The position numbers and the translations under genes were made by a program. Positions 4,005 to 28,212 of a DNA stretch of 34,724 nt are shown here, piece after piece. The DNA is from Methylococcaceae bacterium (GTDB lineage: Bacteria > Pseudomonadota > Gammaproteobacteria > Methylococcales > Methylomonadaceae): NCBI GenBank assembly GCA_005772825.1, contig SXIP01000134.1, positions 1 to 34,724 of the forward strand. The letters run 5' to 3'. The stretch's first letter is position 1. Each line of letters starts with the position of its first letter. Below the pieces are notes generated by a model. The model worked only from the letters and a program-made list of their open reading frames with translations, was not told where the DNA came from and ran no database searches.

Positions 4005-4008
4005 AAAA

Positions 4009-5026: not shown

Positions 5027-5027
5027 C

Positions 5028-7351: not shown

Positions 7352-7403
7352 CGCACCGCTATTTTTCGCGAAAGCTAAAATGGAGGTTGATAAAACGATC
7401 ATT

Positions 7404-7451
7404 TTGTCGAATGCTAACAGTACCGCTATAATGTGTACACCTAAGTACACA
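7404..7451 (+). promoter_or_regulatory. Promoter and operator of the toxin-antitoxin pair
   Basis: TTGTCG (7404-7409) and a perfect TATAAT (7427-7432) are separated by 17 bp. Starting at the last base of the -10 box is a perfect 7-bp inverted repeat TGTGTAC (7432-7438) / GTACACA (7445-7451). A Phd-type antitoxin bound there would block the promoter (inference from family autoregulation). Confidence 0.8.
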
Positions 7452-7462
7452 AAGAGAGTGTT

Positions 7463-8290: not shown

Positions 8291-9454
8291 TTGAAAATTC
8301 CAGCCTATCTTGATTACGCGGCAACAACGCCTATGGCGCCGGAAGCCGTCGATGCAATGCTGCCCTACCTGACAAGTTCCGGCAATTTTGCCAATGCGGC
8401 ATCAAGCCAGCATAGTTATGGCCAGAATGCCGCTTCAGCCATTGACAACGCCCGTTCAGAAATGGCCCATGGCTTACGGTGTAACCCCAAAGATATTATC
8501 TTCACCTCCGGCGCAACCGAATCCAATAACTTGGCCCTCAGCGGCTTCACGTTGGGACACCGAAACCGGGGCAAGCACATTGTTACGTCAGCCCATGAAC
8601 ACAAGTCAGTGCTGGATTGTTGCCGCCACCTTGAATCGCAAGGCATCAAAGTCACTTACCTACGTCCAAGCGGTGACGGTTTATTGACAATAGACAGCAT
8701 CCTCAATGCCGTTACCGACGAAACCGTGCTGGTTTCGCTGATGCACGTCAATAACGAAACCGGCGTCATGCAAGACATCGGGCGCATAGCCGATGCCCTG
8801 AATGAGAAAGGCATAACATTCCATGTTGATGCCGCCCAAAGTGCCGGCAAAGTACCGATTGACTTGTCAGCCATGCCCATTGATTTGCTGTCGCTGTCCG
8901 CTCATAAGTTCCACGGCCCTAAAGGTATTGGTTGTTTGTATGTCCGCAAACGGAAACAAGCCGGACTGACACCCTTGTTCTATGGCGGTGGGCAGGAATA
9001 TAGTCTGCGGCCCGGCACATTACCGACTCATCAAATAGTCAGTATGGCGGCGGCTTTTTCTTTGGCTTGTGAGAGGCAGGAAGCTGATGCAGAACATTGC
9101 CGACAATTACGGCAAACGTTGCGTACCGTTTTAGGCAAGCTCGATGGCGTTCACTGGAATGGCGATCAAAATGATGTCATTCCTCATATTGTTAATGTCA
9201 GTTTTGAGGATGTCGGTGCCGATGCACTGCTAATCGCCCTACGCGACAACGTTGCCATTTCTTCCGGGTCAGCCTGTAACAGTGGGGCTATCGAACCTTC
9301 ACATGTACTGAGGGCAATGGGCATTGAGGGTGATCGGTTGTATGGGGCGGTCAGAATCAGTTTTGGCCGTTACACGACAGCAGCCGAGATGGAACAGGCC
9401 GGGCAAAGCATTGGCGAAGCCGTGATCCGCTTGCGCAAATGGGCAGCAGAATAA
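8291..9454 (+). CDS. dndA: Cysteine desulfurase, DndA/IscS-like
   Basis: This 387-aa PLP enzyme takes sulfur from cysteine as an enzyme-bound persulfide. Family landmarks are all present: N-terminal PAYLDYAATTP, GATESNN (74-80), AHEHKS with H104, HVDAAQSAGK (178-187), PLP lysine K206 in SLSAHKFHGP, and catalytic C329 in SSGSACNSG followed by PSHVLRAMG. The start is TTG at 8291. No in-frame ATG lies before it back to an upstream stop, and the N-terminus aligns with the family. The ribosome-binding site is weak. It sits directly before a phosphorothioation-type methyltransferase and faces an operon with a DndC-like enzyme, so it is likely the sulfur donor for DNA modification. IscS-type housekeeping function is less likely, as no isc genes are near. 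Confidence 0.93.
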   Translation: MKIPAYLDYAATTPMAPEAVDAMLPYLTSSGNFANAASSQHSYGQNAASAIDNARSEMAHGLRCNPKDIIFTSGATESNNLALSGFTLGHRNRGKHIVTSAHEHKSVLDCCRHLESQGIKVTYLRPSGDGLLTIDSILNAVTDETVLVSLMHVNNETGVMQDIGRIADALNEKGITFHVDAAQSAGKVPIDLSAMPIDLLSLSAHKFHGPKGIGCLYVRKRKQAGLTPLFYGGGQEYSLRPGTLPTHQIVSMAAAFSLACERQEADAEHCRQLRQTLRTVLGKLDGVHWNGDQNDVIPHIVNVSFEDVGADALLIALRDNVAISSGSACNSGAIEPSHVLRAMGIEGDRLYGAVRISFGRYTTAAEMEQAGQSIGEAVIRLRKWAAE

Positions 9455-12012: not shown

Positions 12013-14355
12013 TCAGTCAGGTTCTGCATATTTTTCATTTTCGAGGGTAATAAGTGTTTTCAGTTCTTCAATGGTATGCCGTTTCCAATCATCAGGAGAT
12101 CTAGAAAATTTCCCTGTTTGAAGGTGCTTTAAGATAATAGAAAGAAATATGTCATGGTTATTCTCTATAAAATTATCCAACTTTTCCCCACTGTTGCTTC
12201 CCAAAATATTCATATGAGGAGTAAATTCGAACAATTTAGCCGAATATGGACAAAACTCGCTTGAGAATGTGTCTAGATCGATTAGCAGAAGATTTCCACT
12301 TTCGTCCATAACCAACACGCCACCCGTATCGTCATTTCCTTGGATCAACACATCGTGAATGTAATTCTTATCCAGAATACTAAGGGCAATCCTTGATATT
12401 CGCCTTGAATTAATTCCAAAGTTAATTTTAATATCTTCGCTAACATCAGACACTAAACTCAAGACGGCTTTTTTTATTGCTTCTGTTTTATTAACTGCTC
12501 TATTAAATCCCCTAATAAATAAGGCTTCCTTTGCCTGATTCTTCTCTTCGTAAAAACCTTCAAATAATTCCGAAGAACTCCACATCGTCCTTCTCTTTAC
12601 AAATCTGTAATCTAAATTCAAGAAGTATGAATTCAAAGCGCCCACACAGATTTGAATCTCAAACTCAAAACTGCTATTTGGTGCATCTGATGGTTCTACG
12701 TCTTCAAGCAATGACCGAAAATCATAAGTATCGAGACATTTACAAATTATTTCTTCCCTATCGCGAATGGTAGGATCGTTAGGCATTTCTGTAGTATTGC
12801 GAGCGTAATCAATAATCCAGTTTTGCGGAATTGAGTATTTTTCATCTGGAGCTATTGTGATTAGCTTTATTCTCTCAATAAATGATGCAAACCTCTCACC
12901 TGTTCCTAAATTTTCGTGTAGCCTATCATAAGGGTCAAAAATGTATTTATCTTGATCTATTTTGAAATAAATCTTATCTAGATCATTATTGTAGAAGGAA
13001 ATCTTTGGAAATATGACATAGTTACCAAAATGATTTACGGTAACTTCTTTTGCATTATCTGGGATTTGAACGTCATCGTATTCAGTATAATTTACTTTCC
13101 ATCGTTCAATATAAGTATCCTCGTCAATTTGTAGATACTCATCGTAGGCTCTTCTAGAGTAGGGTTTTCCATTTCCGTCTTTTGCCAAAAAGAAATTGTC
13201 GTTTTCCAAGTAGAAGTGATTCCACTGAACATCTTCATAAAGATTTAGGTGTAACCGTTTTGGTATAACTACTATCTTGTATCCGAAATCAAGTTCAACT
13301 TTATTATTTGAATAGGCTTTGGCAGCATGAAGATCTAAACCTCCTCCGTTTGGAAAGAAAGTATGGTTAAGTCCGCGTGTTTTTCCGACAACGTCAAGTA
13401 TTCGCCCAATTTCTTTGGGATCGTCCCAAACGATTGTTTTAGGTCTTGAGGCCACGATTTCTCGCAATAGAAGCTCCCATTCAACTTTAGATATTTGCTC
13501 TATATCGTTAGATAGCCAAGTTTCTAATTGGGCTGCAACTTCCTTGGCTGTGGGTCTTTCCTCTGGCGAGTTTGAAGTACATTTACTAAGTACCTCATGC
13601 AAGATACCCAGATACGAGTGACCATCGAAATTATGAATTTTGGTATTTAAACTGATGCTGACGTCAAGATAGTTATAGCGTCCTTCAAAAGACATTGGTG
13701 TATCGGTCAGGATGATCCATAGTGTTTTCGCAAGTGAGTACACATCAGCTTGAAAGGGGTCGGCATCAAATGGATTTCTCTCCATTTCTGGGGCAATTGT
13801 TGTCCAAGGGCCAATTCGTTTCTCATCCTTGCTTATTGCTTTTTTGTTTTGAAAATGCACTAAGCCAAAGTCGCCAAACTTAAACTCTGAATCATGTTGA
13901 TAGATATTTGACGGTTTAATATCTCTGTGAGCAATTTCATGATCATGCAAAACTGCTAGCGTACTGAATAAGCTTTGAAAACATTGAACTATATCGTCGA
14001 GTCCCTTAAAGGCAACTTTATCGAGACAAGTTGCGTAGGGCATGACATAGTAAAGAAATGTCTCTTTTCTAACTACATTAGGAAGTTCACTATATTGAAA
14101 AATAGGCAGAATGCCTGAAATATTTTCTTGATTATTTAAAACTACTGATACTTCATCTCGAAACCTTGCATATTTCTTTTTTTCATACTCCAGAGTCAAT
14201 TGACCATTTCTGTCGAAACGCAGATTAATTTTTTTAAAGACATATTCGGTATTGGGTATTCTATATACAGTGCCGTTACCACCTTTTCCAACAAAGGATT
14301 TTTTACAAGAAATACTTTTTTGTAAATCTTCATCGGCTATGATTTTATGTTCCAT
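12013..14355 (-). CDS. Eukaryotic-like Ser/Thr protein kinase with large C-terminal extension
   Basis: This 780-aa protein is last in the BREX-like operon. The N-terminal 300 residues are a complete kinase: glycine loop GKGGNGTV (23-30), lysine in VFKKI (41-42), catalytic HRDIKPSN (143-150), DFG (162-164) and APE (188-190). The middle part (about 310-640) is unassigned. Near 666-696, IHDVLIQGNDD...LLLIDLDTF resembles the catalytic loop and metal motif of aminoglycoside-phosphotransferase-like kinases; this is tentative. AAGGA precedes the ATG, 21 bp after the brxL stop. The gene is visibly AT-richer than its neighbours, suggesting separate acquisition. PglW in type 2 BREX is also a kinase, so a signalling or effector role is plausible. 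Confidence 0.88.
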   Translation of the reverse strand: MEHKIIADEDLQKSISCKKSFVGKGGNGTVYRIPNTEYVFKKINLRFDRNGQLTLEYEKKKYARFRDEVSVVLNNQENISGILPIFQYSELPNVVRKETFLYYVMPYATCLDKVAFKGLDDIVQCFQSLFSTLAVLHDHEIAHRDIKPSNIYQHDSEFKFGDFGLVHFQNKKAISKDEKRIGPWTTIAPEMERNPFDADPFQADVYSLAKTLWIILTDTPMSFEGRYNYLDVSISLNTKIHNFDGHSYLGILHEVLSKCTSNSPEERPTAKEVAAQLETWLSNDIEQISKVEWELLLREIVASRPKTIVWDDPKEIGRILDVVGKTRGLNHTFFPNGGGLDLHAAKAYSNNKVELDFGYKIVVIPKRLHLNLYEDVQWNHFYLENDNFFLAKDGNGKPYSRRAYDEYLQIDEDTYIERWKVNYTEYDDVQIPDNAKEVTVNHFGNYVIFPKISFYNNDLDKIYFKIDQDKYIFDPYDRLHENLGTGERFASFIERIKLITIAPDEKYSIPQNWIIDYARNTTEMPNDPTIRDREEIICKCLDTYDFRSLLEDVEPSDAPNSSFEFEIQICVGALNSYFLNLDYRFVKRRTMWSSSELFEGFYEEKNQAKEALFIRGFNRAVNKTEAIKKAVLSLVSDVSEDIKINFGINSRRISRIALSILDKNYIHDVLIQGNDDTGGVLVMDESGNLLLIDLDTFSSEFCPYSAKLFEFTPHMNILGSNSGEKLDNFIENNHDIFLSIILKHLQTGKFSRSPDDWKRHTIEELKTLITLENEKYAEPD

Positions 14356-14376: not shown

Positions 14377-15777
14377 TTAATAAACCCTCAACTCCGCCGA
14401 AAACTCATGTGGGTCTAGTTCAGCCAATTGCGACCTGACTCTTGCCCTTAAATCCTTAGCCGGATTCAATACATAATTTTCATAATCAGGATGTTCAGGA
14501 TTGAGCAGCAGTAATTTTGATAAAGCTGTAGCAAGGCGGGACACGGCTTTGACATCGCGGCTATCGCCTGTCAGGTTGGGCGGTTTGCCGAACGGGAATT
14601 CGGCAAAACTGACTGTCCGCAGTTGATGCAGGTATTCACCAAACACATCAGCTTTTATGCCAAAACCTTGGGCGGCGTTTTGGGTTTCAAAGCGCGGTAT
14701 TTTCCAACCAGGAATAATGCCGTGAAAACGATCCATTAAGGCGCTTTCATGAAACATGTCCGGCAAATGGCGGATATAGTCGCTTTGCCGAGGCCGCCCC
14801 AGATACAAATCAATATTCGCCAACACAATCAACCCGCATTCACTGGTGATTTTATCGTTGCCGATGCTGAAATGACCGGATTCCAAATAGTCTTTAAACT
14901 TGGCTTGAATGTCGTCCTCGCCCTTAAAGCTAATCGACTGGCCTTCATCGAGTACCAATAAATCATGGCGGCCTAATAAACCCACTTCCTTAGTGTTTAG
15001 GTTTTTAAACAGTTGCGCTTGGGTTAATGCGCCGCCGCTGTTTAGCCAAACATAACGGCTTAAGTTTGAATAAATGAACGATTTGCCCGTGCCTTTTGGG
15101 GCCAGTTCCATTAAATTCAGGTTGTTTTGCAATAGCGGCAATAAGCGCAAGATGACATGGTTTTGCTGGTCTTCGTTATAAGCTGCAGGTTCGTAGCCCA
15201 TCGTCCTCAGCAACAAAGCTATCCATTCCCGCGTGGTAAATTCTTCCCGCGCTTTTACCAACTGTTCAAGCCGAACTTTGCCGGATTGCATAGGGTGGAA
15301 TTCGGTCAGCTCAATCACGTTTACTTTGCCTTCAGGCCGGACAAACAAACGGCCTGCACCCCATTGACCACCTTCTAATAGAATTTGGTTGGCATTTAAT
15401 ACGTCATCAGATACTCGGGCGTTACGTTCATCCAGGCAAGGGATGGTCAATAGTTTTTCGCCTTTCTTAATGTCTATGCGGACATCAAAGCGATCCAGCA
15501 AAACAATGGATTCGCCTGAATGTAAGCGGTATTTGATTTTTTCTTTTTCATTTTTGGCGGGCAAATGCCGGCTCATAAAGTCGGTTATCGCTTGATAAAT
15601 CTCCGCGTCCGTTTGATCAGGTTTTTTAAAACGGGAAATTAGCCATTCTTCAACAAAACTGGGAATGGTGCGTTTTTCACGGATTTTTAAGTGCCGGACT
15701 AATGCCTTATCAATGGTCAATTCACCGAAAGCGGCGGCAATTTTTGCGTCGAGTTGTAGCGGGTCTATAGCTGTCAA
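14377..15777 (-). CDS. brxL: BREX Lon-like AAA ATPase BrxL (short form)
   Basis: This 466-aa AAA+ ATPase has Walker A in ELAPKGTGKSF (226-233), Walker B in LLVLDEGQ (273-280), and an arginine-finger-like MDRFHGIIPGW (348-358). These residues and the surrounding LNTKEVGLLGRHDLLVLDE context are characteristic of BrxL. The protein stops after the ATPase module, at QLAELDPHEFSAELRVY. The roughly 680-aa BrxL proteins of type 1 continue into a Lon-protease-like domain. A shorter BrxL family of about 450 aa exists, so this is probably a natural short form rather than a truncation. The start overlaps the PglZ stop by four bases. BrxL is needed for phage exclusion in other BREX types. Confidence 0.92.
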   Translation of the reverse strand: MTAIDPLQLDAKIAAAFGELTIDKALVRHLKIREKRTIPSFVEEWLISRFKKPDQTDAEIYQAITDFMSRHLPAKNEKEKIKYRLHSGESIVLLDRFDVRIDIKKGEKLLTIPCLDERNARVSDDVLNANQILLEGGQWGAGRLFVRPEGKVNVIELTEFHPMQSGKVRLEQLVKAREEFTTREWIALLLRTMGYEPAAYNEDQQNHVILRLLPLLQNNLNLMELAPKGTGKSFIYSNLSRYVWLNSGGALTQAQLFKNLNTKEVGLLGRHDLLVLDEGQSISFKGEDDIQAKFKDYLESGHFSIGNDKITSECGLIVLANIDLYLGRPRQSDYIRHLPDMFHESALMDRFHGIIPGWKIPRFETQNAAQGFGIKADVFGEYLHQLRTVSFAEFPFGKPPNLTGDSRDVKAVSRLATALSKLLLLNPEHPDYENYVLNPAKDLRARVRSQLAELDPHEFSAELRVY

Positions 15778-18041
15778 AACATGTCCTCAAAACTTTGCGT
15801 ACCCGCATCTTTTTCAAGCAATGACGCAGGAAATTTAACCGTTAATAATTTATGGTCTTGTTCATGAACTCCAGCATAGTGATAAGACAGCAAGACCTCG
15901 ATTTCAGTAAAGCCTTCTTGTTCTTGCGTGGAGCTGAAGCGTAGCATTAAGTTTTGGGTTTTATTCGCCCTTAGGCTATCCACATTTCCCTTACCTGAAA
16001 AAGGCGAGGCCAGGCTGATTTCAATTGTTGTCAAATCTTTATCATGATTGATAAGTTGCATTTCTATTTGCCATTGCCGATCTGCCACCCGCACACATTG
16101 GTTATCCGGCAATTTAATTTCTAATGGAGTGACCCCAACTTGAGAGGGCTTTGAAGCCAATGTAATGCAGGGTATCAGAACTTCTTCTGGGGTAAGTCCG
16201 CCATGCGCCAGTAAACCTTTAGGGGTCAGCCTACACCGTTGTTTAGATACGGCATATTCACCTAGCAACGCAAAATCATCGGGCAAGGATGTTGCGCCTT
16301 TTAATTTGAAAGCTCTATCTTTGCATTCACTTAAGGTCTGGCCTTGGTAAATACTTTGGGTGACGGTCATGCCATGATCGGCAGTGATAAAAAACACAAT
16401 GTCTTTGTTAAGCAAGGCAGCATCTTTTTCCCAACGGTTCAACATGCGTTTGATTTGGCTCATGATCGGTTGAATATCATCGCGGTGTTTACTGAAACTA
16501 GGGCAATCATGCAAGCGTTCATCCAGACGGTTTTCAAAATACACCAACAATTGCGTTGCTTCATCAATGCGTTCAGAATTTTCCGACCAACTTTTAAGCA
16601 CTTTAAGAGAGTCCGGCGTAGGCAAATAATCTTGATAAACTTGGCGTAGGATAGCTTCCTGATTCCCAGGCGGTTGTTGGTTGACAGGCAAACCCGTCAA
16701 TACAGCCATTTTACCCACCTCAGTCAATGTGGGTAGCGGCGCAAACAACTGCTCCTGATGCAAAACCAATCCGTTCATCCCTTGCAACATCTGCACCACT
16801 TTATCCTGATTCATTGCCGATAAAGCATCAACCATAATGATGACAGCCACATAGCCCTGCTGTAGATAGGCCTTTACTTTAACAGAAAACTGCCGCCAAT
16901 CGTGTTTTGAGCGGGGCACACGCGCAGATTGTGCTGCCAGCAACCAGTCTGTAAAACTGCGATTGATAGCTTCATCTAAATTATGTTTATCCAAAAACGC
17001 TTGTCGGCAATAATCAAAATACCCCTCACTCCAATTGATTGCCTCATCAACCGTAGCGGAGGCATCTAACAAAGGATAGCCATCCAGGCATTTCTGTAAT
17101 GCTTCAGATAATATCTGAGCCTGTCCACTACTGAACGTGTGCAGTTTGGTCAATAAAGCAGGGGTCAGCAATTCACGGCGACCAGTAACCCGCTCTTGTA
17201 CGGCATCAAGCAAGCTAGGCCAATCAATCAGCCAATCGGCTAGGGTCTCAGGAGGGGCCTCATCGGCATGAATTTTCCGGTCAATCGCATCCAGCGCAAG
17301 CAAGTATTTATCAACCAATCCATTGGCCTGGTCTTCAGGCAATGGAATCACAGGCAATGCTAGCAACAAAGCGGAATCGGATGTTTTCGGTGGTAAAGCG
17401 AGGTTGAGCTGATGGGCACTGATAACACCCCGCAAATGCTCCAAATGCTGTTGATAAGCAAAATGTTTGAAGAATGTAGCAGGACTTTGTGCCTTAAGCC
17501 ATTCACGGACAAACCACTGTGCAGATTTTAGTTCAAATCCCAAAGCCGAAATCAAATATTGGCAAAAAGCGTCCTTGAGAGGCGCAATTTTCAATATGAC
17601 GTGCAGGATCATGCCTTGACGGCTTAATATCTCAATAAAATTTTGATAATTAATATCCGGTAATTCAGGAAGACAAGCTTGCAATATGCTTTCTGCAAAC
17701 TGTTCCTCACTGTTTGGAGCGATGAAGGCTTTTTGTAACAAGCCCAATTTGACGATCAACTCATTGCTAAGCCAATCGTGGGGATTTACATTACATTTTT
17801 GCGCGAAGATGACCCTGGGTATGAGTTGTAAGGTCGGCAAGACACCGTTATAGCCTTCATAATGCTTAAAACGTTGCCATAAAGCTTGATTGCTTAAACG
17901 CACTCTTAACAAAGTATCCGTCTTAGATTTCAAGTGCTGGTCGATCTGTTGCATCACGGGCAAAACATCGCCAGCCATTTTAACAACCACCGCATCATGG
18001 TTGTCTATATTGAATTCATCGCGGATAAGCTGTACAGGCAT
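15774..18041 (-). CDS. pglZ: PglZ-domain alkaline-phosphatase-superfamily protein
   Basis: This 755-aa protein carries the hallmark domain of BREX/Pgl defence. Metal-binding landmarks lie in the C-terminal half: VIIMVDALSAM (about 401-410), LPTLTEVGKM (436-445, candidate nucleophile region), FITADHGMT (551-559) and LAHGGLTPEE (611-620). The N-terminal 390 residues are helical and unassigned. PglZ proteins are thought to hydrolyse phosphoester bonds, possibly on DNA or nucleotides; the substrate is not settled. The start lies 4 bp after the stop of the BrxC-like ATPase, and the stop overlaps brxL, so the three are tightly coupled. Confidence 0.95.
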   Translation of the reverse strand: MPVQLIRDEFNIDNHDAVVVKMAGDVLPVMQQIDQHLKSKTDTLLRVRLSNQALWQRFKHYEGYNGVLPTLQLIPRVIFAQKCNVNPHDWLSNELIVKLGLLQKAFIAPNSEEQFAESILQACLPELPDINYQNFIEILSRQGMILHVILKIAPLKDAFCQYLISALGFELKSAQWFVREWLKAQSPATFFKHFAYQQHLEHLRGVISAHQLNLALPPKTSDSALLLALPVIPLPEDQANGLVDKYLLALDAIDRKIHADEAPPETLADWLIDWPSLLDAVQERVTGRRELLTPALLTKLHTFSSGQAQILSEALQKCLDGYPLLDASATVDEAINWSEGYFDYCRQAFLDKHNLDEAINRSFTDWLLAAQSARVPRSKHDWRQFSVKVKAYLQQGYVAVIIMVDALSAMNQDKVVQMLQGMNGLVLHQEQLFAPLPTLTEVGKMAVLTGLPVNQQPPGNQEAILRQVYQDYLPTPDSLKVLKSWSENSERIDEATQLLVYFENRLDERLHDCPSFSKHRDDIQPIMSQIKRMLNRWEKDAALLNKDIVFFITADHGMTVTQSIYQGQTLSECKDRAFKLKGATSLPDDFALLGEYAVSKQRCRLTPKGLLAHGGLTPEEVLIPCITLASKPSQVGVTPLEIKLPDNQCVRVADRQWQIEMQLINHDKDLTTIEISLASPFSGKGNVDSLRANKTQNLMLRFSSTQEQEGFTEIEVLLSYHYAGVHEQDHKLLTVKFPASLLEKDAGTQSFEDMF

Positions 18042-18045
18042 CGTA

Positions 18046-21000
18046 TTACTCGTAGTCAGCTAAAACAGCCCGTAATGCTGCCGTGATGTCGCCATTTGAT
18101 AGCCCACACCCCTGAATGTATTTTTGCAGCAAAAAAACTAACTGCTCTTTTGTGGTAATCGGTTCGGCAACACGGTTTTCTGGAGAATAGACGCGCGGAG
18201 CCTGTTGATGATGTTCAACTAAAGTTTTTAGTATTCCTCGACATTCGCCAATTTCAGTTTCCGTGCAATGTTCGGTCGGTTTGTTTAAGAACGCCTGGGT
18301 AATTTTATCAGGACAAATTTCGTCAATTTGCCCATGCTCCTCAAGTAATCGGGCGAAGGCTTTCGCTTCAATGCTGGCAGAATCATGGTTTAAATTGGCA
18401 ATCAGTTGGCTTTTGGTTTCCTGGCTGTTTGGTAAAACTGATTGCACCGTTTGCTTTAGCTCATGGTGCTTGGCGTGGCTGATGCGCTCGAAATCATCAA
18501 GTAGCTCTTTTAATTTACCCTGCCCTTCATTAAGAATAGAACTTTCACTTGCATTATCAAGCACGACTAATTTAAGCAAAAACTCGGCTACATCTTGTTG
18601 GCTTTTACCAATCTGCTGTAAAAATTTGATCAACTCTTTAGTTTGTAGATGTAGTTGCCCCGAGCTCTTAACTGCATCGGGCTGTTCATTAATGAATTTG
18701 CGTAAGGCTTGCACCACTTCGATGGCAAAATCTTCATAAGATTGCTGATCCCCCTTCTTTAATTTAAAGAAATGGCTGAGTGCGGACAATATAGCCAATT
18801 GCTTAGTGCTAAATTCAAAGCGCCTGATTGTTAATTTGCTGTTCTGGTCAAAAGCGTCAGTCAGATTTGTGGCGAAGTCTCTTTCATTCGTACTTCCCCA
18901 ACGCAAGCGTTTAATGTCATCGCGCACGGCAACCGCTGCAAATAAAGCCAAGGTACAGGCAGGCAAGCCATACGGCGGGGCAACCAGCTTGTCGCGCAAT
19001 TCTTTGACTAAATAGGGCTGTTCACGCTTACGCAACAAGTTATCGTGCAACAGTTTTAAAACCTCTTTCACCTTCCCGTCGGTTTCATCAATTTTTCTAA
19101 TGTCCCAACAACCTGTAGGTGGTCGCTCGATAAACAAGCGGTTAACCCCTAACACGCCATCAATCAGTGCCGATGGCTCGCTGGTTTCATTGGCTTCACC
19201 CAGCAAATCGGTCTGATACGTCGGGTTAGTGGCAAAGTCCAGGATGCGCTCTACGATTTTTTGTACCTTGCTGCTGCCTGTGTACTTTTCGTCGTTCAAC
19301 TTGTTCATATTATTGGCACGGATGGGGATTTCCTGACTATATTCAGCCTGCACCTGCCCTGCAAGAAAGCCTCTGAACTCGTGCCAATTATTACAAGCGA
19401 TGGCGTTTGTCGTTCCTGCCTGATGAATTGAACACTTGCCGGCTACCAAGCCGTCGCGACCGTATAACAGCCTTAATACCTGCACTAAATCTTGGCGGTT
19501 TTTCTCCCATTTGGCTGTCAACTGGCGGCGCACATCGTCACTGGCAGTTTTTTCTTTCAACAATAATTGCAAAACCAAATAACGGCACAGTAATCCGGTC
19601 AAATTAAAATTTCTGCCTTCAATGGTGACGGTTTCGGAATAAATGCCCGCCGTTGGCAACCAAAAATACAACGGACTAAGCTTCATTTCCGCAATTCTGG
19701 ATTTGACAATCCCAACATCTTCGGCAGTTTCCGCTAACACCAGCTTAACCTTGGCGCTTAACGTCAGATTATCCAATTTCAATTGGTTGCTAATGGGCGG
19801 CGTCAACAGACTGACTTGATAAGAGCGGACAATCCCGCAAATCGAAGGCTCCAAATCATGGACGCCAATCATGGGCAACACGTCTGCTAGCATATCGGGA
19901 TGGTCGTTAAACAAAGTTTCGGCACTACGCCCTGCGAACAGCGCCAACTTATCAGGGATCAATTTTTCGACATCAGCACTCGCTTCACCATGTAAAAGCC
20001 ATTCTCCTGTCATGTCATTTTTCCAGACTAAACCGACTGCTTTCAGCCAAGCCAAATCGTCAGCCAGCTTTAAAGCCGCAGACGTGTTCGGTTTGGTATC
20101 GTATAAAGCACAGGACAAAAACAATTCGGTAGCCTGAAAATTGTCTCCCAGCAATTGCGCCAACAATAACAACTTTAAGATGTTGTGTTTGGCCTGCAAT
20201 TCTGCGGCGGGCAAATCGGCCGGAATTCGCGCTAATGCACGTTGATAACGGTTCCAGTCGTTAGCCGCTTTTTCTTTCAGGTTGTCGGCATAATAATCAG
20301 CCAAAGCAGGTAGCCTAACCAATCCATCGCCTAACAAAGCGTCAGGACGGAGTTCCCTGGCCAACAGCTTGCCCGCATTGTCACGGAAGAAGGTTAAAGC
20401 CGTCCGGTTAGACTGGGCAAAATCAGACAGAGCGAACAAGCCAGCCGCCATGACCGGGTGCAGCGGATAGACTTCTTTCAGCATATCGGCCAGATGGGGG
20501 CCTAAGATTTTAAATAGCGGTAATGCCGCACAACTTTCCAATAGGGTTTGCCGCTCTGTAATCGCCTGTTGCCAGCATTGTTCCCCTTGCAGCGTCCAAG
20601 TTTTTTGCATCGCCAACAAATGATAACCCTCGCTTTCAGAGGCATTCAGTTCAATCTTAAACGGTCTGTGAAAACGTCCGGCAATGGTTTCCAAACGATT
20701 TTTGATGGAATGATTAGCTGCTGTTCTAGTCGCATATTCAACAAAAGAAACATGGGTTAAACCAATAAACACCGTGTGACCTTGCCTAGGTTTACAGACG
20801 GTTTCGACAAATGTCTGTAATGCCATAATTTCCTGCACAGGGCGACGGTGTGGGTTGATGATTAAATCTTCCAGCGCATTGCCAAATTCATCCCAAACTA
20901 CCAAAATGCCGCCAAAACCGTGTTGCTCGGCCAAGTTCTTACCCGCTTCTTGATAAGCCTCAATAAAGTTTTTGCCGCCGTGGCTAGCCGGATTAAAAGC

Positions 21001-21690
21001 AGCCCTTAAACAGACTTTTTCATGCCAATACTTGAATACCTCTAATGCCTGTGGCTGATGCTGTTTCAAGCCTGTCCGCATTTCCGCAGTCGTCAAATAA
21101 TGTTCAGCCAATTGCCATTGCGACAAATCGGTGTTGGCAAGTGAGGGATCCCCCGCTGTAATTTCTTCAAAACGCTGAATACAAACATCATATTCCGTCG
21201 TCGGTAAAATGTTTTTCGGGTCAAACGTAGGATGCCGGATTAGCGCATCGTACAAACCTTCATACAATTTTGCCGCCAAGGATGGCGTTTCTGAACCATA
21301 GAGCGTGACCAGCAAATAGGGTCTAGCGTCCGGGTCGTTCCCCGCTAGAAAGGTATGCCGCAATTTTTCCGCCAAATCCTTATGTTCCGCATTACTTAAG
21401 CGTTGGAAAAACCCGGAAAATTCGGCACTACCGGCACCATCGCGGAATAATTGCGCGATTAACACGGCAAGATGGCTTTTGCCTGAACCGTAATTGCCAA
21501 ACAAGTTGATGGCCCGCATTTCTTGGGTAGCCTCGGGCAATACAGCTTTTTGCAAATGCGCCAGTACCGCTGTCGATGCCTTAGTCGGCGCAAAACAGGC
21601 CACTAAATTCGGGTTAGCAATATTGCGGTCAAGTACGACAGCCGCATCGGTTTGCGCGGCGTTGATTTCAATCAAGTCGGAAACGTGCAT
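18046..21690 (-). CDS. brxC: BrxC/PglY-like large P-loop ATPase
   Basis: This 1214-aa protein has Walker A GNYGSGKSH at 65-73 and Walker B ILVVWDEFGN at 262-271. The rest is largely helical and charged, as in PglY/BrxC, the large ATPase of BREX systems. It directly precedes pglZ with 4 bp between them. The start shares TGATG with the stop of the small upstream gene. The opening residues (VSDLIEINAAQTDAAVVLDRN) are typical of this ATPase group. It probably uses ATP to drive assembly or movement of the modification/exclusion complex on DNA. A second ATPase of similar size and domain position is encoded at 23924-27313; they differ too much for recent duplication. Confidence 0.88.
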   Translation of the reverse strand: MHVSDLIEINAAQTDAAVVLDRNIANPNLVACFAPTKASTAVLAHLQKAVLPEATQEMRAINLFGNYGSGKSHLAVLIAQLFRDGAGSAEFSGFFQRLSNAEHKDLAEKLRHTFLAGNDPDARPYLLVTLYGSETPSLAAKLYEGLYDALIRHPTFDPKNILPTTEYDVCIQRFEEITAGDPSLANTDLSQWQLAEHYLTTAEMRTGLKQHQPQALEVFKYWHEKVCLRAAFNPASHGGKNFIEAYQEAGKNLAEQHGFGGILVVWDEFGNALEDLIINPHRRPVQEIMALQTFVETVCKPRQGHTVFIGLTHVSFVEYATRTAANHSIKNRLETIAGRFHRPFKIELNASESEGYHLLAMQKTWTLQGEQCWQQAITERQTLLESCAALPLFKILGPHLADMLKEVYPLHPVMAAGLFALSDFAQSNRTALTFFRDNAGKLLARELRPDALLGDGLVRLPALADYYADNLKEKAANDWNRYQRALARIPADLPAAELQAKHNILKLLLLAQLLGDNFQATELFLSCALYDTKPNTSAALKLADDLAWLKAVGLVWKNDMTGEWLLHGEASADVEKLIPDKLALFAGRSAETLFNDHPDMLADVLPMIGVHDLEPSICGIVRSYQVSLLTPPISNQLKLDNLTLSAKVKLVLAETAEDVGIVKSRIAEMKLSPLYFWLPTAGIYSETVTIEGRNFNLTGLLCRYLVLQLLLKEKTASDDVRRQLTAKWEKNRQDLVQVLRLLYGRDGLVAGKCSIHQAGTTNAIACNNWHEFRGFLAGQVQAEYSQEIPIRANNMNKLNDEKYTGSSKVQKIVERILDFATNPTYQTDLLGEANETSEPSALIDGVLGVNRLFIERPPTGCWDIRKIDETDGKVKEVLKLLHDNLLRKREQPYLVKELRDKLVAPPYGLPACTLALFAAVAVRDDIKRLRWGSTNERDFATNLTDAFDQNSKLTIRRFEFSTKQLAILSALSHFFKLKKGDQQSYEDFAIEVVQALRKFINEQPDAVKSSGQLHLQTKELIKFLQQIGKSQQDVAEFLLKLVVLDNASESSILNEGQGKLKELLDDFERISHAKHHELKQTVQSVLPNSQETKSQLIANLNHDSASIEAKAFARLLEEHGQIDEICPDKITQAFLNKPTEHCTETEIGECRGILKTLVEHHQQAPRVYSPENRVAEPITTKEQLVFLLQKYIQGCGLSNGDITAALRAVLADYE

Positions 21691-22178
21691 CAGGACAATC
21701 CTTGCTTTATTGCGGTCGTTTTAGTCGATACCCATAATTTGACAGGTAAACCGAACAACTCACGACCGATAAAATACTGCTGATTAAGTTCGGCAAACTC
21801 ATTGTTTTCTACAAACACCACAATGACAGGGTGGCAGTTTTGTCTCGCGCTGAGTGCTGACCAAAACGCTTGCTTGTCGGTGATAGGCCAAGACAGCCAC
21901 CAATAATGAGGCTGCTCGATAATGAGGCCATTGCGCGAGGCATCGAAAACCTCGGCGATAAATTCAGGGCGGGAGCAGGAAACAGGCGGTCCTGCGGATT
22001 CAGGACAACCGCCTCGCCAAACCGTGTAATCCGGAAATAATGCCGTTAAGGCATTGGTTACAGAATCCAATTCATCCAACGCCTTGCAGGAAAAAGCCAA
22101 ATGACGGTAGCGGATTTCAGGGGCATGGTAAGTGGCAAGGACATCCATTAAAGTCTGGATCAATATCTCTGTTTGCAT
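21690..22178 (-). CDS. Unknown 162-aa BREX/Dnd-operon protein
   Basis: This 162-aa soluble protein lies between a DUF4007 gene and the BrxC-like ATPase. The central part contains PHYWWLSWPITDKQAFWSAL (109-128). It is followed by a beta-rich HPVIVVFVENN segment and YFIGRELFGLPVKLWVSTK near the end. It has two to four cysteines but no clear metal motif, and no membrane segment. By position and size it could play the part of BrxB-like small proteins of other BREX types, but I see no real sequence match. The stop overlaps the ATPase start (TGATG), arguing for a stoichiometric partner of that ATPase. Confidence 0.8.
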   Translation of the reverse strand: MQTEILIQTLMDVLATYHAPEIRYRHLAFSCKALDELDSVTNALTALFPDYTVWRGGCPESAGPPVSCSRPEFIAEVFDASRNGLIIEQPHYWWLSWPITDKQAFWSALSARQNCHPVIVVFVENNEFAELNQQYFIGRELFGLPVKLWVSTKTTAIKQGLS

Positions 22179-22234
22179 GGTTTCGTTGCGCCTCGGTACA
22201 AATTAGGGGCTAGTCATAAATGTGAGAAAACGGC

Positions 22235-23101
22235 TTACAACCAAGTGTCTTCACCTTGTTGCAACAGCAATAACAAAGTCTTTTTAGGGTCGCAATCATC
22301 GGCAAAAGCCAGAGAGTCATTATTGACGGCTTCGTTAAAACTAAAATAGTCTGGCCATCGTTGGCTTTGGTGCATACGCCGTAATTGCAATCGTAACTCT
22401 TCGGGACGACTGCATAAAAAGTTAGCCAAGCCGATGCCCATTAATTCTGAGAAAGTGACAGTGGAACGGCTTTTTAACTGATGAAAACGCGACATAGCCA
22501 GGGCATGAATGACAATTTCATCGGTAAGTTTAGGAGAACCCAAGCGGACGCAAATGCCATCCTCACGAATTTTGCTAATCTCTATCAAGCCAAGATCAGC
22601 TAGGGGGCGGTTGTCCACAAACATCCGTCTAACACTGCTAATTAATGATTCCAATGTCGATTCTTTGTAAGTTTCTGCATTATCGTTTTGCAAAGTGCTT
22701 TGTATTTTTTCAAAATGCTGCTTTGAGCTAATCCAGTCTTTGGAAAGCGTATCTAAGCAAATAAAAAAACTTCTGTAAGGTTCGCTACTTGTAGAAAAAC
22801 AAGTTGCCAAATGGAACGCCCACCATGTTGAAGATTTATTTAACTCAGGATCGTTGTTATTTAGCGACAAACCGAAATCAGTTAATTCAAATTCTTTTGA
22901 TGATTTTCCATTCCTAATGATCTGTGCAGCGATCATCCAGCCTTTTATGGTTGATAACCTGTTTTTTCCGGCAATGAACTCAATCCTGGCTCGCCTCATG
23001 TTTTGGCTTGAAAATATTTCCCTATCTGTTTTGAGAATATTGATAGCTTTGCTAATCCACCAGCGAGATACTGGTTCACCTTCATTATTGATTAATGCCA
23101 T
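22235..23101 (-). CDS. DUF4007-type protein, divergent second copy
   Basis: This 288-aa protein shares the outline of the DUF4007 family. It has GKNRLSTIKGWMIAAQII as the counterpart of the GLGRNMVNALQYWLQ segment in the other copy, then FELTDFGLSL and a STWWAFHLATCF segment matching TIWIIHWRIAS. The N-terminal HETFP motif is replaced by RRARIEF. DUF4007 proteins have no established activity but cluster with DndC-like enzymes. GAGAG precedes the ATG, 16 bp after the stop of the PAPS-reductase gene. This gene and the next upstream one look AT-richer than the ATPase genes. Assignment to the family rests on segment similarity by eye. Confidence 0.75.
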   Translation of the reverse strand: MALINNEGEPVSRWWISKAINILKTDREIFSSQNMRRARIEFIAGKNRLSTIKGWMIAAQIIRNGKSSKEFELTDFGLSLNNNDPELNKSSTWWAFHLATCFSTSSEPYRSFFICLDTLSKDWISSKQHFEKIQSTLQNDNAETYKESTLESLISSVRRMFVDNRPLADLGLIEISKIREDGICVRLGSPKLTDEIVIHALAMSRFHQLKSRSTVTFSELMGIGLANFLCSRPEELRLQLRRMHQSQRWPDYFSFNEAVNNDSLAFADDCDPKKTLLLLLQQGEDTWL

Positions 23102-23117
23102 TTAATTACTCTCAGTC

Positions 23118-23918
23118 TTATTTAAAACAAATCAAACAACCTTCATCGCCATCATCTTCGTCATCATCTTTGATCACGGCATCCATTAAGTTCTTAGATT
23201 TTTTACCTTTGTTCATGGCTTGAAACCTAGTTTTTATATCGTCCTTTCTAGCCAGCATTTCATCTAAGGACTCGTCTTGCGACCAGGTATGATCACGCCC
23301 TTCATTTTTATGGAATAGCTCAAAAGCCCTGGCTTTCTCAAAATATTCAGGATGGTTTTCGTATAAGCCTATCCACTCAATTTTTTGCTGGTAAAAACAA
23401 AAATAACAACCCGAACGGCTTCGCCAATCATAATATTTGGGTAAACCAATCCCGGATTCTTCAAGAATGCGGACTATGTCTTCTTTAATAAGACCGTCCT
23501 CCTTAAATGGATAAACTGCTTTAATATTGGGTTTGGTCGAGATGTATCCCGTCCGGTGAGTTTCATCGGCCCTTATAGCAACATAACTAATTACAGGGTC
23601 GTCACCGACAAATTGCTCAAAAGGTTTGAGCTTTAAGTTGACCGTGCACCATCGGGAACGTGCAGTAGGTAAAAAATTGCCATTTAATTTCAAGTAATAA
23701 TCAAAATCACGCCCCGCATTCAGGCGAATAATTTCTTTGCCCAAATAATCAGCCATCAGATCAACAAAGGCTAAAGTCTCCGGTAACTCCGCCCCGATAT
23801 CGGCAAAGAAATATTCCATGTCCGGCACTTTGTCACGTAAATAGATGGCTAAGGCCGCACTGTCCTTGCCACCGGATAAACCGAGCAGATGCCTTACAGG
23901 TTTTTCTTCATTCATCAT
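23118..23918 (-). CDS. brxP: PAPS-reductase/DndC-like sulfurtransferase (BrxP)
   Basis: This 266-aa ATP-pyrophosphatase-fold enzyme is characteristic of type 4 BREX and related to DndC. The PP-loop LSGGKDSAAL lies at about 14-23. Candidate iron-sulfur or catalytic cysteines are in SRWCTVNLKLKPFE (C91) and SGCYFCFYQQK (C171, C174). An acidic tail (DDDEDDGDEG) ends in CLICFK, giving another CxxC. It probably activates the DNA backbone by adenylation and inserts sulfur from the desulfurase. I prefer ATG 23918, preceded by AGTAGGCG. A longer frame from 23957 would overlap the upstream ATPase by 34 bp and adds no family feature. Confidence 0.92.
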   Translation of the reverse strand: MMNEEKPVRHLLGLSGGKDSAALAIYLRDKVPDMEYFFADIGAELPETLAFVDLMADYLGKEIIRLNAGRDFDYYLKLNGNFLPTARSRWCTVNLKLKPFEQFVGDDPVISYVAIRADETHRTGYISTKPNIKAVYPFKEDGLIKEDIVRILEESGIGLPKYYDWRSRSGCYFCFYQQKIEWIGLYENHPEYFEKARAFELFHKNEGRDHTWSQDESLDEMLARKDDIKTRFQAMNKGKKSKNLMDAVIKDDDEDDGDEGCLICFK

Positions 23919-23923
23919 TACGC

Positions 23924-26900
23924 CTACTTTAGTTTGGATGGATAGGTGGTTTGGCAACGCTTTATCAACTCAGCAATAATCGCCAGTTGGGCGCTTTCAT
24001 CGAGCTTGTCCCAGTCCGCTATTTGGTCGGCCTGTTGTGTTGCGAATTGTTGTTGGGCTTCGGTCGGGTAAACGGTTTTGGTAATGGTGTGGCTTTGAGC
24101 ATCGACTAAGCGCACCAGCATAGCCTTGCCATTGTGATTTTTATCGGGCGATTCGAGCCGCAGTCTTTCCAGCTCGAATAGCTGTTGGGCGCGTTCTTGC
24201 AACCTGAATTCGGCTTCAATTCGATTGACATCTTTCCATTTTTGCGGCGGTACTTTACCCAGCAGTGCGGCAGTGGATTCCAGCCAGGCTTGGTCGTTGG
24301 GATAACCGGCATCGCACAAGCGTCGAATAAACGCCCCGACCCCCATTTTGTCCGGCGTATAAGCGTCTAGGCCGTGATAGCGGTTGCTTAGGTAAGCACG
24401 AAGACTAGCTAAATCGGTAATGCTTTCCTGCAACAAGGATTGGCTTAATAACGCTTGCCAATCTTTGAGCATTGCGCCATAAGCCCCGCGCAATTCGTGC
24501 AACACGCCTACTAATTTTTGGATGCACTGTTCAACCAGAGGGGGTTCGCCGTTAAGAAAATCAGTGGGGGCTAAGCCTAAGGCTTGAGGTATTGCCTCAA
24601 ACAACAACACACCGGGACTTTGAGCCTGGGTAAACGCCGCCATGACCCGCACGGCTTCAATGCTTAATGTAAGGCATTGTTTGGTGTAGTCCGGCAGGCG
24701 AGAAGCAAAATTGACCAAGGGTTTGGCAATATCAAGCAAAGTGGCATCGGCGGGAATGTCGCCGATAACCGAATTGAGGTATTGATCGAATAATTCGCCG
24801 CGCAATCCACCCAGGTCAAACCGTTCCAATGCAAAAAATTCGGGGCGTTTGCATAATAGTTCAGCTTGATCCATCGTCAGTTGAGCGCAATACACGCCTT
24901 CCTGGTAAAGCGCAACTTCCCGGCGATAGCCCAGAAGATAGGCTATCAATAGAACAGGCAAGACCCCCTGTTTGATACCGTATGGCCGGCCCTGTAAGAA
25001 GCGGTACAAGGACGTTACCGGAACTTGTTTGCCGCTATCGCCCAGATAGTCGGTAATGCCTTCCCAAACCGGGTGTAGCTTGCAGGGGTCACAGGATTCA
25101 TCGGGTGGGTAAATACCTAAGATGCCGTCTACATACCGATGTAAACGACTGGCTTTTAGTAATGACAAGTACAGGCTCATTTCCGCCGGGGTTTTGCTGA
25201 TGCCTAATTGTTCTTGATTGGACGCGGTCAACATGGCGTGTATTAAACGATTGCGTCCGGTGTTTGCGCTGGCTGAAGGTTGTTCCCACATAATCAGTTC
25301 GTTGCGTAACAACGGTGCTAGTAGGTAACAACGTGTCTCCAGCCACGCCGACAAGCGGCTTTGTATGTCGCGGCGGTTTGTCACGATTTGTTTTTCGCCG
25401 TTGAAATACCAAATCATTTCTTTAGGTTCAGCCAGCAAATTCATAAACCTTGTGGCGGTTTCTGATTCGGCATGGGACAGCCAGGCTAAGTATTCCCGGT
25501 AAGCAATCGGGTCTTGATGCAAGGCTGCATAGCGTTTGGGCAGTTCATCCAAAGCCATTTTATTAAGCACGGTTTCCCTAAGCTGTTCGTGCTGGTCAAA
25601 ACCGCAAACGACAACAATATCCTGGCTTTTAAATTGGCTGGTATGGAGTTTTTCATCCTCTTCGGTGAGGTAGATAAGTAGTACGAGTCCATCGTTGATT
25701 TTGCTATGCGGGTGGCTTTTCGAGGCGAACCGGACAGCAAAACTGCGCAATGATCCGGTTTCTATGCTGACACGGCGGGCCACCATCGGTGGAATTGGAG
25801 CCAGGGTGTTTAAAATCGGTACAATCGGCTGGTTGGCAAATTCGGTTACGGTGCTTGAAAGTGCCTCGTCCAAGTCAAAGTCACTGCCTTGCCAGACGCG
25901 GTACTCTTGGTTGTATTGGCGGAAATGGATGATGGAAGCGGCTGTTAAGCGTTTCAGCAAAGCGTCCAAATCGTCACCAAATAACAGCCGCAAAAGCTCT
26001 GGGCTGGCTTTAAGCCCGCGTTGGCCACCGATCAGATTCAACAGGCCAATGGTTTTTAGCAACTGCACGGCATCATCATCTGGGGCGGCATCAAAACGCT
26101 CCAGAGCCGTGACCACTTCTAGCCACCGTCGATAGGTCAGCGGGTCAGAAAATCCACCCATTTGCCGGGCAATAAAATAATCATAGAGTTCAGCGGGAAG
26201 AATCCATGATCCCATTGCCAACTGGCCTAGTCTAGTTTTAAGCCCGAAGGGTTCGGTGCTACCCAAATAGGAAAACAATGTCCTTTCGTTTTGGGCGATT
26301 TTTTGGCACAGCACGGGCAATATCAACAAGGACAATGGATGTAGCGGATAGCATTGTTGAAAAATCTCCCGTGTCTGGGAGTCGGGAAGATTTTGCGGCA
26401 AAGCCCCCATTGTAGACAGTTGCTTAGTCCACTCATTAAGCTGTGAATGCAGGTAAGCGGTCAGTTCATGTTTTTGATCAAACGCCTCCGCAATTATTTT
26501 TAGTGTCTGTTCGGCAGGTTCAAGAAAGGCAATGGCGTTATAACGCCCCTGCACTTTTTGCCATTCATCGCGCAAATGCTTGCCTAACCGATGAGTATAA
26601 TATTCAAAGGCTTGATGTAACAGGACGACCACATGTAGGGGCGCATCATGGCTTTGCCGAGCATGTTCCGCCAACAGTTGCAACAGATGTATTTCCCGGT
26701 GCTGTGGGTGGTATGACTCATATTCGAGGAACTTGCCCAGTTCGTCAATGATAAGCAACATCCCTGAACCACCCATTTTAGCCCAACAGTCTTGGGTCGC
26801 TTGCAGATGAGCTATTACTTCGTCCATTGGAGTGGACGGAACGGCGGCGGCTTTAATAGTAGCTACCCTGTGCTCATCAAATCCCGCTTGCGCCATGCTG

Positions 26901-27313
26901 TCCGCTAAAGCCAGCAGGAGTTGTCTAATTAATGAATCGGGTGTACCGTTGACACTGACCCTTAAAAAGCCGCTGCCGCCGGCAACGGCTTTGTCAAAGG
27001 CTGCCGAAGTCACCGGGGCAATCGCCTTAAGTTTGTTAGAGGCAATGTACCTTGCCTGGCTTTCTTCTTTGGCGAGTAAGGCTGAAAGGAATAATGCAAA
27101 AGCTGATTTTCCAGAACCGTAGGGGCCGATGAGCGCAAAGCTGCGTTCTGCCGGATGCGTCGTAAAACCTGATTTGAACTGTTCGAGCGTTTGCAGGGAT
27201 TTTGCTGTCGGCAAATAGGCTTGTAAGAGTTCTAAGTCATTACCGTCGCGCAACAAATTGACTGAGCGGGCATATACCCCTCGTATTGAAACAAAGTTGT
27301 CCAATGGTTTCAT
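23924..27313 (-). CDS. Second large P-loop ATPase (BrxC/PglY-like)
   Basis: This 1129-aa protein has Walker A GPYGSGKSA (63-71) and Walker B MLLIIDELGKFLEYE (185-199). Then follows VVVLLHQAFEYYTHRLG, a sensor-like strand. The remaining 850 residues are helical with no recognised enzyme domain. The start overlaps the DUF4007 stop by four bases (ATGA), and the brxP start follows its stop within a few bases, so DUF4007, this ATPase and BrxP form a coupled block. It belongs to the same broad group as the 1214-aa ATPase downstream, but its motifs and flanks differ. Which of the two is the true BrxC of type 4 BREX cannot be decided by eye. Confidence 0.87.
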   Translation of the reverse strand: MKPLDNFVSIRGVYARSVNLLRDGNDLELLQAYLPTAKSLQTLEQFKSGFTTHPAERSFALIGPYGSGKSAFALFLSALLAKEESQARYIASNKLKAIAPVTSAAFDKAVAGGSGFLRVSVNGTPDSLIRQLLLALADSMAQAGFDEHRVATIKAAAVPSTPMDEVIAHLQATQDCWAKMGGSGMLLIIDELGKFLEYESYHPQHREIHLLQLLAEHARQSHDAPLHVVVLLHQAFEYYTHRLGKHLRDEWQKVQGRYNAIAFLEPAEQTLKIIAEAFDQKHELTAYLHSQLNEWTKQLSTMGALPQNLPDSQTREIFQQCYPLHPLSLLILPVLCQKIAQNERTLFSYLGSTEPFGLKTRLGQLAMGSWILPAELYDYFIARQMGGFSDPLTYRRWLEVVTALERFDAAPDDDAVQLLKTIGLLNLIGGQRGLKASPELLRLLFGDDLDALLKRLTAASIIHFRQYNQEYRVWQGSDFDLDEALSSTVTEFANQPIVPILNTLAPIPPMVARRVSIETGSLRSFAVRFASKSHPHSKINDGLVLLIYLTEEDEKLHTSQFKSQDIVVVCGFDQHEQLRETVLNKMALDELPKRYAALHQDPIAYREYLAWLSHAESETATRFMNLLAEPKEMIWYFNGEKQIVTNRRDIQSRLSAWLETRCYLLAPLLRNELIMWEQPSASANTGRNRLIHAMLTASNQEQLGISKTPAEMSLYLSLLKASRLHRYVDGILGIYPPDESCDPCKLHPVWEGITDYLGDSGKQVPVTSLYRFLQGRPYGIKQGVLPVLLIAYLLGYRREVALYQEGVYCAQLTMDQAELLCKRPEFFALERFDLGGLRGELFDQYLNSVIGDIPADATLLDIAKPLVNFASRLPDYTKQCLTLSIEAVRVMAAFTQAQSPGVLLFEAIPQALGLAPTDFLNGEPPLVEQCIQKLVGVLHELRGAYGAMLKDWQALLSQSLLQESITDLASLRAYLSNRYHGLDAYTPDKMGVGAFIRRLCDAGYPNDQAWLESTAALLGKVPPQKWKDVNRIEAEFRLQERAQQLFELERLRLESPDKNHNGKAMLVRLVDAQSHTITKTVYPTEAQQQFATQQADQIADWDKLDESAQLAIIAELIKRCQTTYPSKLK

Positions 27314-28212
27314 ACTGATCTTCCATGATAATAGGCTGTTAACAAATCCGTTTCTTTGAGTAGAGAGCTTCTCCGGTACAGTTGGTGCAATCCGGCAGTT
27401 TCACGTAGTTCGTAACAATTCGGATAGGTTTCCATCACATTGGCCAATGCGCCCATTAGACCCTCCTCGTTCAAACGGAAAACAGCACCTGGAGCAGGAT
27501 AGCCGTCCCCGCCATACAGTAGGATATTGATTGGCAACGCGGCTTGCTGAGGTTGCGCTGAAAAGCGACTTTGTAACGCAAAATGCAAGGCCATAGGTGG
27601 CAAAAAGGGACGTACCGTGCGCTGGCTCAGATAGCCGCCGGACACCTCGTTGGAGAGCAAACCCAATAAGGACATAGGAGAATCCAAATGCTCATCGTTG
27701 CGTCCGGCAGTGGGCGAATACATCCGCAGTAGCGTTGAAACATCGGATTTTAAGGTGCTTTCAGAACGGCTTTTCAGCTCTTGGCCGACAAAATCCACTA
27801 ACGAATGCAGCACGTCGCTGCTTTTAAAACGCGGCATCGAAAACTGGTTGAAAAACCAGAAAAATCCGGTAGCCAATTCAGGATTGGAGGCTATGCGCCA
27901 ATGTATGATCCAAATGGTCGTCTCATCTTCCAAATAAGTGTCGCCATTTTCTCCGAGAAAGGCCTCACCAAAATCCGTAATGTGCGCCACACCTTCGTTA
28001 AAATTCATCACCCCGGTCACCTGTAACCAATATTGCAGGGCGTTGACCATGTTCCTGCCAAGCCCCAATTCAATCATGGCCGCTTCGGGTTGCTTAAAGA
28101 TGTCTGTAAAGCCTTGTTTATTGACCGTCTGAATGGCTTTGGTCAGCCACCCATAACCGAGCGGGAATGTTTCATGGCGGCCAAATGTGCTTTTTTGGGG
28201 GTTAAATTTCAT
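27310..28212 (-). CDS. DUF4007 family protein, canonical copy
   Basis: This 300-aa protein, first in the operon, has FGRHETFPLGYGWLTKA (10-26), GLGRNMVNALQYWLQ, ITDFGEAFLG and TIWIIHWRIASNPELAT. This is the typical order of the DUF4007 family, which is found with DndC-like genes. The repeated helix-rich N-terminal half suggests winged-helix DNA binding, but this is inference. No clear ribosome-binding site precedes the ATG. The upstream 152 bp hold a palindrome and direct repeats that may regulate the operon. The stop overlaps the next ATPase gene by four bases. Confidence 0.88.
   Translation of the reverse strand: MKFNPQKSTFGRHETFPLGYGWLTKAIQTVNKQGFTDIFKQPEAAMIELGLGRNMVNALQYWLQVTGVMNFNEGVAHITDFGEAFLGENGDTYLEDETTIWIIHWRIASNPELATGFFWFFNQFSMPRFKSSDVLHSLVDFVGQELKSRSESTLKSDVSTLLRMYSPTAGRNDEHLDSPMSLLGLLSNEVSGGYLSQRTVRPFLPPMALHFALQSRFSAQPQQAALPINILLYGGDGYPAPGAVFRLNEEGLMGALANVMETYPNCYELRETAGLHQLYRRSSLLKETDLLTAYYHGRSV

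Follow-up and report, generated by a model that had tools for sequence, protein, structure and literature searches.

In BREX systems, a single set of proteins is believed to carry out both modification and exclusion, which makes the two activities difficult to study apart. A contig of a Methylococcaceae bacterium (assembly GCA_005772825.1, contig SXIP01000134.1), which we analyzed over its whole length of 34,724 nucleotides and refer to as the window, raises the question of whether the two activities can be divided between different proteins, given that its defense operon carries two DUF4007 proteins and two large ATPases. A sequence-only reading of the window had proposed two fused modules, or two specialized complexes, possibly one for modification and one for exclusion, rather than a recent duplication. 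Are the two DUF4007-ATPase pairs copies of each other, duplicate subunits of a BREX type 4 system, or parts of two modules?

Organization of the defense locus

The minus-strand genes from sspB through brxL are all in frame and closely packed, and the plus-strand genes for SspA and a TIGR04096 protein are convergent with them (Table 1). Every gene named in the sequence-only reading is present on the minus strand, except that its "BrxP" is a stand-alone SspD. The interval that it gave for the operon, 18046 to 28212, covers sspB to ATPase 2, but PglZ and BrxL lie outside it, as do the kinase, the TIGR04096 protein, and SspA, which also belong to the defense system.

Integrase, Rha/antirepressor, and toprim genes adjoin the defense genes at positions 506 to 7058, which suggests an integrative or phage-satellite-like island. 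The slot after brxL is occupied by different accessory genes depending on the locus (compared in the window and in loci L014, L015, L016, L030, L031, L033, and L034), with contents that include Ser/Thr kinase, SIR2-STAND, GmrSD/DUF262-like, and PLD-DEAD helicase genes. The kinase gene in the window has a GC content of 0.36.

Table 1. Genes of the defense locus, with positions in the window and supporting evidence
Feature	Position	Strand	Evidence
SspB (DUF4007 #1), writer-side DNA-binding/nicking subunit	27310-28212	-	PF13182 237.6 bits; PADLOC SspB 246 bits
SspC, AAA+ ATPase of PT writer	23924-27313	-	PADLOC SspC 1167 bits
SspD, PAPS-reductase-family sulfurtransferase, PP-loop SGGKDS	23118-23918	-	PADLOC SspD 361 bits
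DUF4007 #2 (DUF4007b), BrxA-like, putative DNA recognition in second module; form without SBD	22235-23101	-	PF13182 64.8 bits
162-aa inactive AAA+/STAND-like protein, candidate BrxB counterpart	21690-22178	-	AF2 and Foldseek
ATPase 2, BrxC/SspC-like, 1214 aa, AAA+	18046-21690	-	PADLOC SspC 151 bits
PglZ, alkaline-phosphatase fold, putative nuclease	15774-18041	-	PF08665 26.2 bits and motif alignment
BrxL, short form without Lon C-terminus, Walker A APKGTGKS, 466 aa	14377-15777	-	TIGR02688 390.7 bits, cut-off 329
Ser/Thr protein kinase, accessory slot after BrxL	12013-14355	-	PF00069 67.7 bits; PADLOC mad6/PD-T4-6-like
DNA phosphorothioation-associated putative methyltransferase (dnd_rel_methyl)	9439-12009	+	TIGR04096 602 bits
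SspA cysteine desulfurase	8291-9454	+	PADLOC SspA 492 bits

A phosphorothioate writer in the first half

By its gene content, the first half of the operon is an Ssp-type phosphorothioation (PT) writer whose PT activity is putative. PADLOC models found SspA, SspB, SspC, and SspD in the window (Table 1), and window SspB also matched the solved SspB structure 6juf at 1.1e-18. The Walker A (GPYGSGKS) and Walker B (LLIIDELG) motifs of SspC are both intact. SspD is a stand-alone ORF with no DUF4007 fusion, and its translation probably begins at an ATG at 23918, 5 nt beyond the sspC stop. Because SspD scores approximately 300 bits against cyanobacterial and Thermomicrobium SspD but 12 to 13 bits against BREX-4 BrxP, BrxP is the wrong name for it. 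According to the roles known for these families (PMC12707154, PMC8092258, and PMC12205998), SspA and SspD supply sulfur, and SspB-SspC select and open the site.

As in the SspABCD-SspE and SspABCD-SspFGH systems, a complete SspABCD writer is present, and a PT-linked restriction module follows SspD. The effector differs: in the window it consists of DUF4007b, a BrxB-like protein, a BrxC-like ATPase, PglZ, and BrxL. None of SspE, SspF, SspG, and SspH was matched among the window proteins scanned with PADLOC, in a scan whose positive controls (loci L099 and L100) yielded SspF and SspG. SspFGH was ruled out as the identity of the second half by this absence of F, G, and H matches.

A BREX-like core in the second half

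To judge from its sequence, the second half resembles a BREX core that lacks a methyltransferase, and no PglX-type methyltransferase was found among the window proteins scanned. The second DUF4007 assignment, on which the sequence-only reading depended, is right, since its PF13182 score exceeds the cut-off of 27 bits more than twofold (Table 1); the AlphaFold model of this protein had a mean pLDDT of 53.6. The ATPase 2 family keeps Walker A (GNYGSGKSHL) and Walker B (WDEFG) motifs. With PADLOC, ATPase 2 scored 38.6 bits on a BrxC model, along with its SspC match; no Pfam family was assigned to it. PDB sequence searches with profiles of DUF4007b, ATPase 2, and the 162-aa protein returned nothing meaningful. 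PglZ scored barely above the PF08665 cut-off, and its metal-site motifs are conserved in a motif alignment (D405, D507/H511, D555-H556, H613). The PglZ of type I systems has nuclease activity and binds BrxB (PMC12205998).

The AF2 model of the 162-aa protein (pLDDT 90.5) is a small alpha/beta domain. In Foldseek, this domain matched AAA+ ATPases, with probabilities of at most 0.97, TM scores of approximately 0.45, and no E-value below 0.001. Its sequence has no Walker A motif; BrxB is described as a small AAA+-like/iSTAND domain without Walker A (PMC12839542, PMC12205998). No match was obtained when the 162-aa protein was compared by hhalign with 11 BrxB proteins. Because a BrxB sequence match is absent, the BrxB-like label draws on the position and size of the protein together with a weak match in fold, and we treat the protein as a candidate BrxB counterpart.

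Divergence of the two DUF4007-ATPase pairs

The pairs differ as strongly as had been claimed: the DUF4007 proteins are 22% identical (E = 7e-8), and the ATPases are 24% identical over 217 aa (E = 2e-6). The SspC proteins of the window, Pseudanabaena, and Thermomicrobium roseum score 400 to 420 bits against one another (417 to 420 bits for the window protein against the other two), but window SspC scores only 20 bits against ATPase 2, its partner in the same operon. In the ATPase tree, ATPase 2 sequences form a clade with 100/100 support, apart from SspC. Methanotroph DUF4007b sequences likewise form a separate clade in the DUF4007 tree, and a clade joining them with methanotroph SspB was rejected (AU test, P = 0.015). 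Each ATPase clade and each DUF4007 clade covers many loci. Support for the deep branches of the ATPase tree is weak, and several of its rows are long, which limits inference on the exact origin of ATPase 2. Taken together, the trees and bit scores reject a recent duplication of the pairs, in agreement with the sequence-only reading; the best explanation for these sequences is that the pairs are ancient specialized counterparts that evolved separately.

Comparison with BREX type 4 and related systems

An ordinary BREX type 4 system with duplicate accessory subunits would have one complex responsible for both modification and exclusion. The kinds of genes in the window fit the published type 4 list (PAPS reductase, DUF4007, BrxC, PglZ, short BrxL, and cysteine desulfurase; PMC12839542), and, as in type 4, PT writer genes replace the methyltransferase and BrxL lacks a C-terminal extension. 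Moreover, SspC and PglZ of T. roseum are matched along their entire length by a BrxC model and a PglZ model of PADLOC (2,632 and 1,742 bits), so this kind of locus has probably been catalogued earlier as BREX; no PADLOC model matches the second T. roseum ATPase. The type 4 gene lists contain five or six components, with one BrxC and one DUF4007 (PMC12839542), whereas the window has two ATPases, two DUF4007 proteins, a separate small BrxB-like gene, and an SspD that is not fused to DUF4007 (the BrxP fusion is frequent, not universal, in type 4). Our BREX-4 control locus (L075, Methanosphaera pNP174) contains a fused BrxP, PglZ, BrxL, and only one ATPase, so the ATPase pair is not the standard type 4 core. 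On the type 4 PglZ model NF033445 (cut-off 140), the control PglZ scored 533 bits and the window PglZ 36 bits. The control locus and this PglZ score reject a standard BREX-4 core. Because window SspD also resembles Ssp-type SspDs rather than BrxP, and the halves fall in separate clades and occur apart (see below), we consider an ordinary type 4 system unlikely.

A BREX-related HerA/FtsK capture system, for which seven components are listed, including DUF4007, a STAND NTPase, DUF6079, and PglZ (PMC12839542), shares with the window a DUF4007 protein, a STAND/iSTAND protein, a BrxC-like ATPase, and PglZ. It differs in having HerA/FtsK, TGT, and GNAT, and neither SspABCD nor BrxL is among its listed components. 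We found no description in the literature of two ATPase-DUF4007 pairs per system; an earlier mention of the layout may exist.

Joint and separate occurrence of the two halves

A scan of a genome collection, using two peptide patterns only, returned 23 loci, all in methanotrophs of the Methylococcales or in bacterial bins. The order SspB-SspC-SspD-DUF4007b-small protein-ATPase 2-PglZ-BrxL holds in every Methylococcales locus of sufficient length with the exception of L014, and some of these loci carry small inserted genes within it. In L014, a deletion (9953 to 10062) fuses sspC, after approximately residue 445, out of frame to ATPase 2, from approximately residue 64, and removes sspD, DUF4007b, and the small gene; this may be a genuine loss or an assembly fault of the MAG. 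The two-module layout is also found on the Pseudanabaena galeata plasmid pPg_05 and on the T. roseum megaplasmid, and therefore the apparent restriction to Methylococcales is a search bias. Overall, at least three bacterial phyla carry the joined layout, with co-directional genes and short or overlapping junctions despite very little sequence identity. The second-half ATPases of the window and the cyanobacterium score only approximately 3 bits against each other, so common descent of the second halves across phyla rests more on gene order and content than on sequence.

Each half is also found without the other. Among 369 gammaproteobacterial genomes, SspD was detected in 10, two of which have full-length ATPase 2; all of the other SspD-positive neighborhoods (8/8) lack BrxL and PglZ, and several contain SspFGH. 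On the Abditibacteriota plasmid pIAD-21, the second half is located behind an Eco57I-type methyltransferase, which takes the place of SspABCD, with no adjoining Ssp genes. The pIAD-21 order (DUF4007, 161-aa AAA protein, BrxC-like ATPase, PglZ, BrxL) is that of the window; its ATPase is a close relative of ATPase 2 outside Methylococcales (57 bits) and its BrxL scores 329 bits, but its 161-aa protein keeps an intact Walker A. A scan of viral contigs with the ATPase 2 profile detected SspC-type loci only, without BrxL or PglZ, and a plasmid tblastn search with PglZ gave no matches.

These distributions bear on two further explanations. Two independent systems could be mere neighbors in a defense island with no functional link, and the window region does resemble a mobile island (integrase, Rha/antirepressor, toprim protein), while other SspABCD loci adjoin different effectors. 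This is very improbable given the co-directional order and short or overlapping junctions in three phyla at very low identity, and given the sulfur-binding domain (SBD) that is on or beside DUF4007b in most Methylococcales loci. Alternatively, the second DUF4007-ATPase pair could be a second PT writer, for another site or strand, with one SspD common to both; DUF4007 and ATPase proteins are both writer subunits in Ssp systems, and a single SspD is present. We give this explanation hardly any weight, because the homologous pair on pIAD-21 goes with a DNA methyltransferase and no adjoining PT genes, and because the pair precedes PglZ-BrxL in the loci seen.

In Methylotuvimicrobium buryatense 5G (L020, positions 5117 to 7574), an IS66 transposase gene splits sspD, and the second-half genes are open, indicating that the second half can sometimes be tolerated even where the writer does not work. 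This writer-minus state fits a core that is PT-triggered or dormant more readily.

A sulfur-binding domain as a candidate PT reader

In relatives of the window, DUF4007b frequently bears an N-terminal extension that matches ScoMcrA/SprMcrA SBD structures; the entries matched include 5zmo (ScoMcrA, E = 1.3e-4) and 7cc9, an HNH-domain relative. In a profile search, the SBD was fused to or adjoining DUF4007b in 11 of the 17 loci counted; it is fused in seven loci, and elsewhere it is encoded between sspD and DUF4007b by an ORF of its own or a broken one. These two genes have no SBD between them in the window and in five relatives. An SBD HMM gave no match in the window, and a search run without a positive control found none elsewhere in the source genome, which is 77% complete. 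Because the SBD reader is absent there, discrimination in the window would have to use DUF4007b itself or contact with the writer. On a tree in which several forks are weak, parsimony counts at least four events of SBD gain or loss.

The sulfur cavity of ScoMcrA is formed by H116, R117 or Lys, Y164, and P165 (PMC6224610). By eye, the aligned SBDs of L019 and of strain 5G retain the H, K, Y, and P cavity residues. Other SBDs show Y-K where these two have H-K, and Y-A or H-A where they have Y-P, making PT binding less sure in those proteins. In Bathymodiolus methanotrophic symbionts (L024, 5085 to 6946; L025, 6717 to 8578), approximately 1.4 kb of extra DNA splits the SBD gene, apparently leaving a broken reader.

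The SBD found on DUF4007b of relatives of the window is also carried by SspF in two SspFGH loci: directly after sspD, L099 (7119 to 9536, 113 bits) and L100 (10308 to 12683, 167 bits) encode SspF with an N-terminal SBD. The accessible text of the SspFGH paper reports a Walker A motif alone for SspF (PMC8092258).

Apparent exchange of sspBC in the window

Window SspB and SspC are 55 to 59% identical to those of the SspFGH loci L099 and L100, with which they group at full support, and 37 to 41% identical to those of other methanotroph two-module loci. Window SspD, on the other hand, is 73 to 82% identical to methanotroph SspDs, and GC content drops from approximately 0.50 to 0.36-0.42 just beyond the SspC/SspD junction (approximately 23.9 kb). 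Our best reading of these identities is that an sspBC pair was swapped in, with SspD and a second half of the methanotroph type retained. In L014, the same SspB (92%) and partial SspC (93%) adjoin a second half that is related, so this pairing extends beyond a single assembly.

A proposed two-module mechanism

We think it likely that the locus encodes a composite defense system in which a PT writer is docked to an exchangeable BREX-like restriction core. Module 1 (SspA, SspD, and SspB-SspC) would take sulfur from cysteine and place it as phosphorothioate at selected positions of the host DNA. In module 2, DUF4007b, the 162-aa protein, ATPase 2, PglZ, and BrxL would inspect DNA and, depending on its PT state, block or damage foreign DNA, so that improperly marked molecules are stopped; PglZ would be the likely nuclease and BrxL a putative helicase or translocase. 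One DUF4007-ATPase pair may load the writer and the other the excluder, and in most relatives the SBD upstream of or fused to DUF4007b would read the PT mark. PT might act on the second half as an inhibitor, in the manner reported for SspFGH, or as a trigger, like that reported for SspE.

The comparative evidence (the genes present and their conserved order, the separate clades of the two halves and their occurrence apart, catalytic motifs that are intact, and SBD homology) supports the earlier proposal of two fused modules for modification and exclusion. From this evidence we infer the functional split between writer and excluder, the enzymatic activities, complex formation, and PT-dependent switching with its sign. 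A wider reading, which we hold tentatively and at a little less than even weight, is that the second half is a modification-agnostic BREX restriction core that docks to a PT writer or a methyltransferase, the SBD being detachable and the writer subunits interchangeable; it would form a distinct class with members in at least three phyla, in which the second ATPase and DUF4007 have gone unnoticed.

Published type 4 gene lists seem to miss components, as the second T. roseum ATPase suggests. In this operon, modification and exclusion are apparently split between two divergent DUF4007-ATPase pairs, so the writer and the excluder could be deleted separately. With a variable SBD and an apparent sspBC swap, how a BREX core recognizes its mark becomes directly testable.
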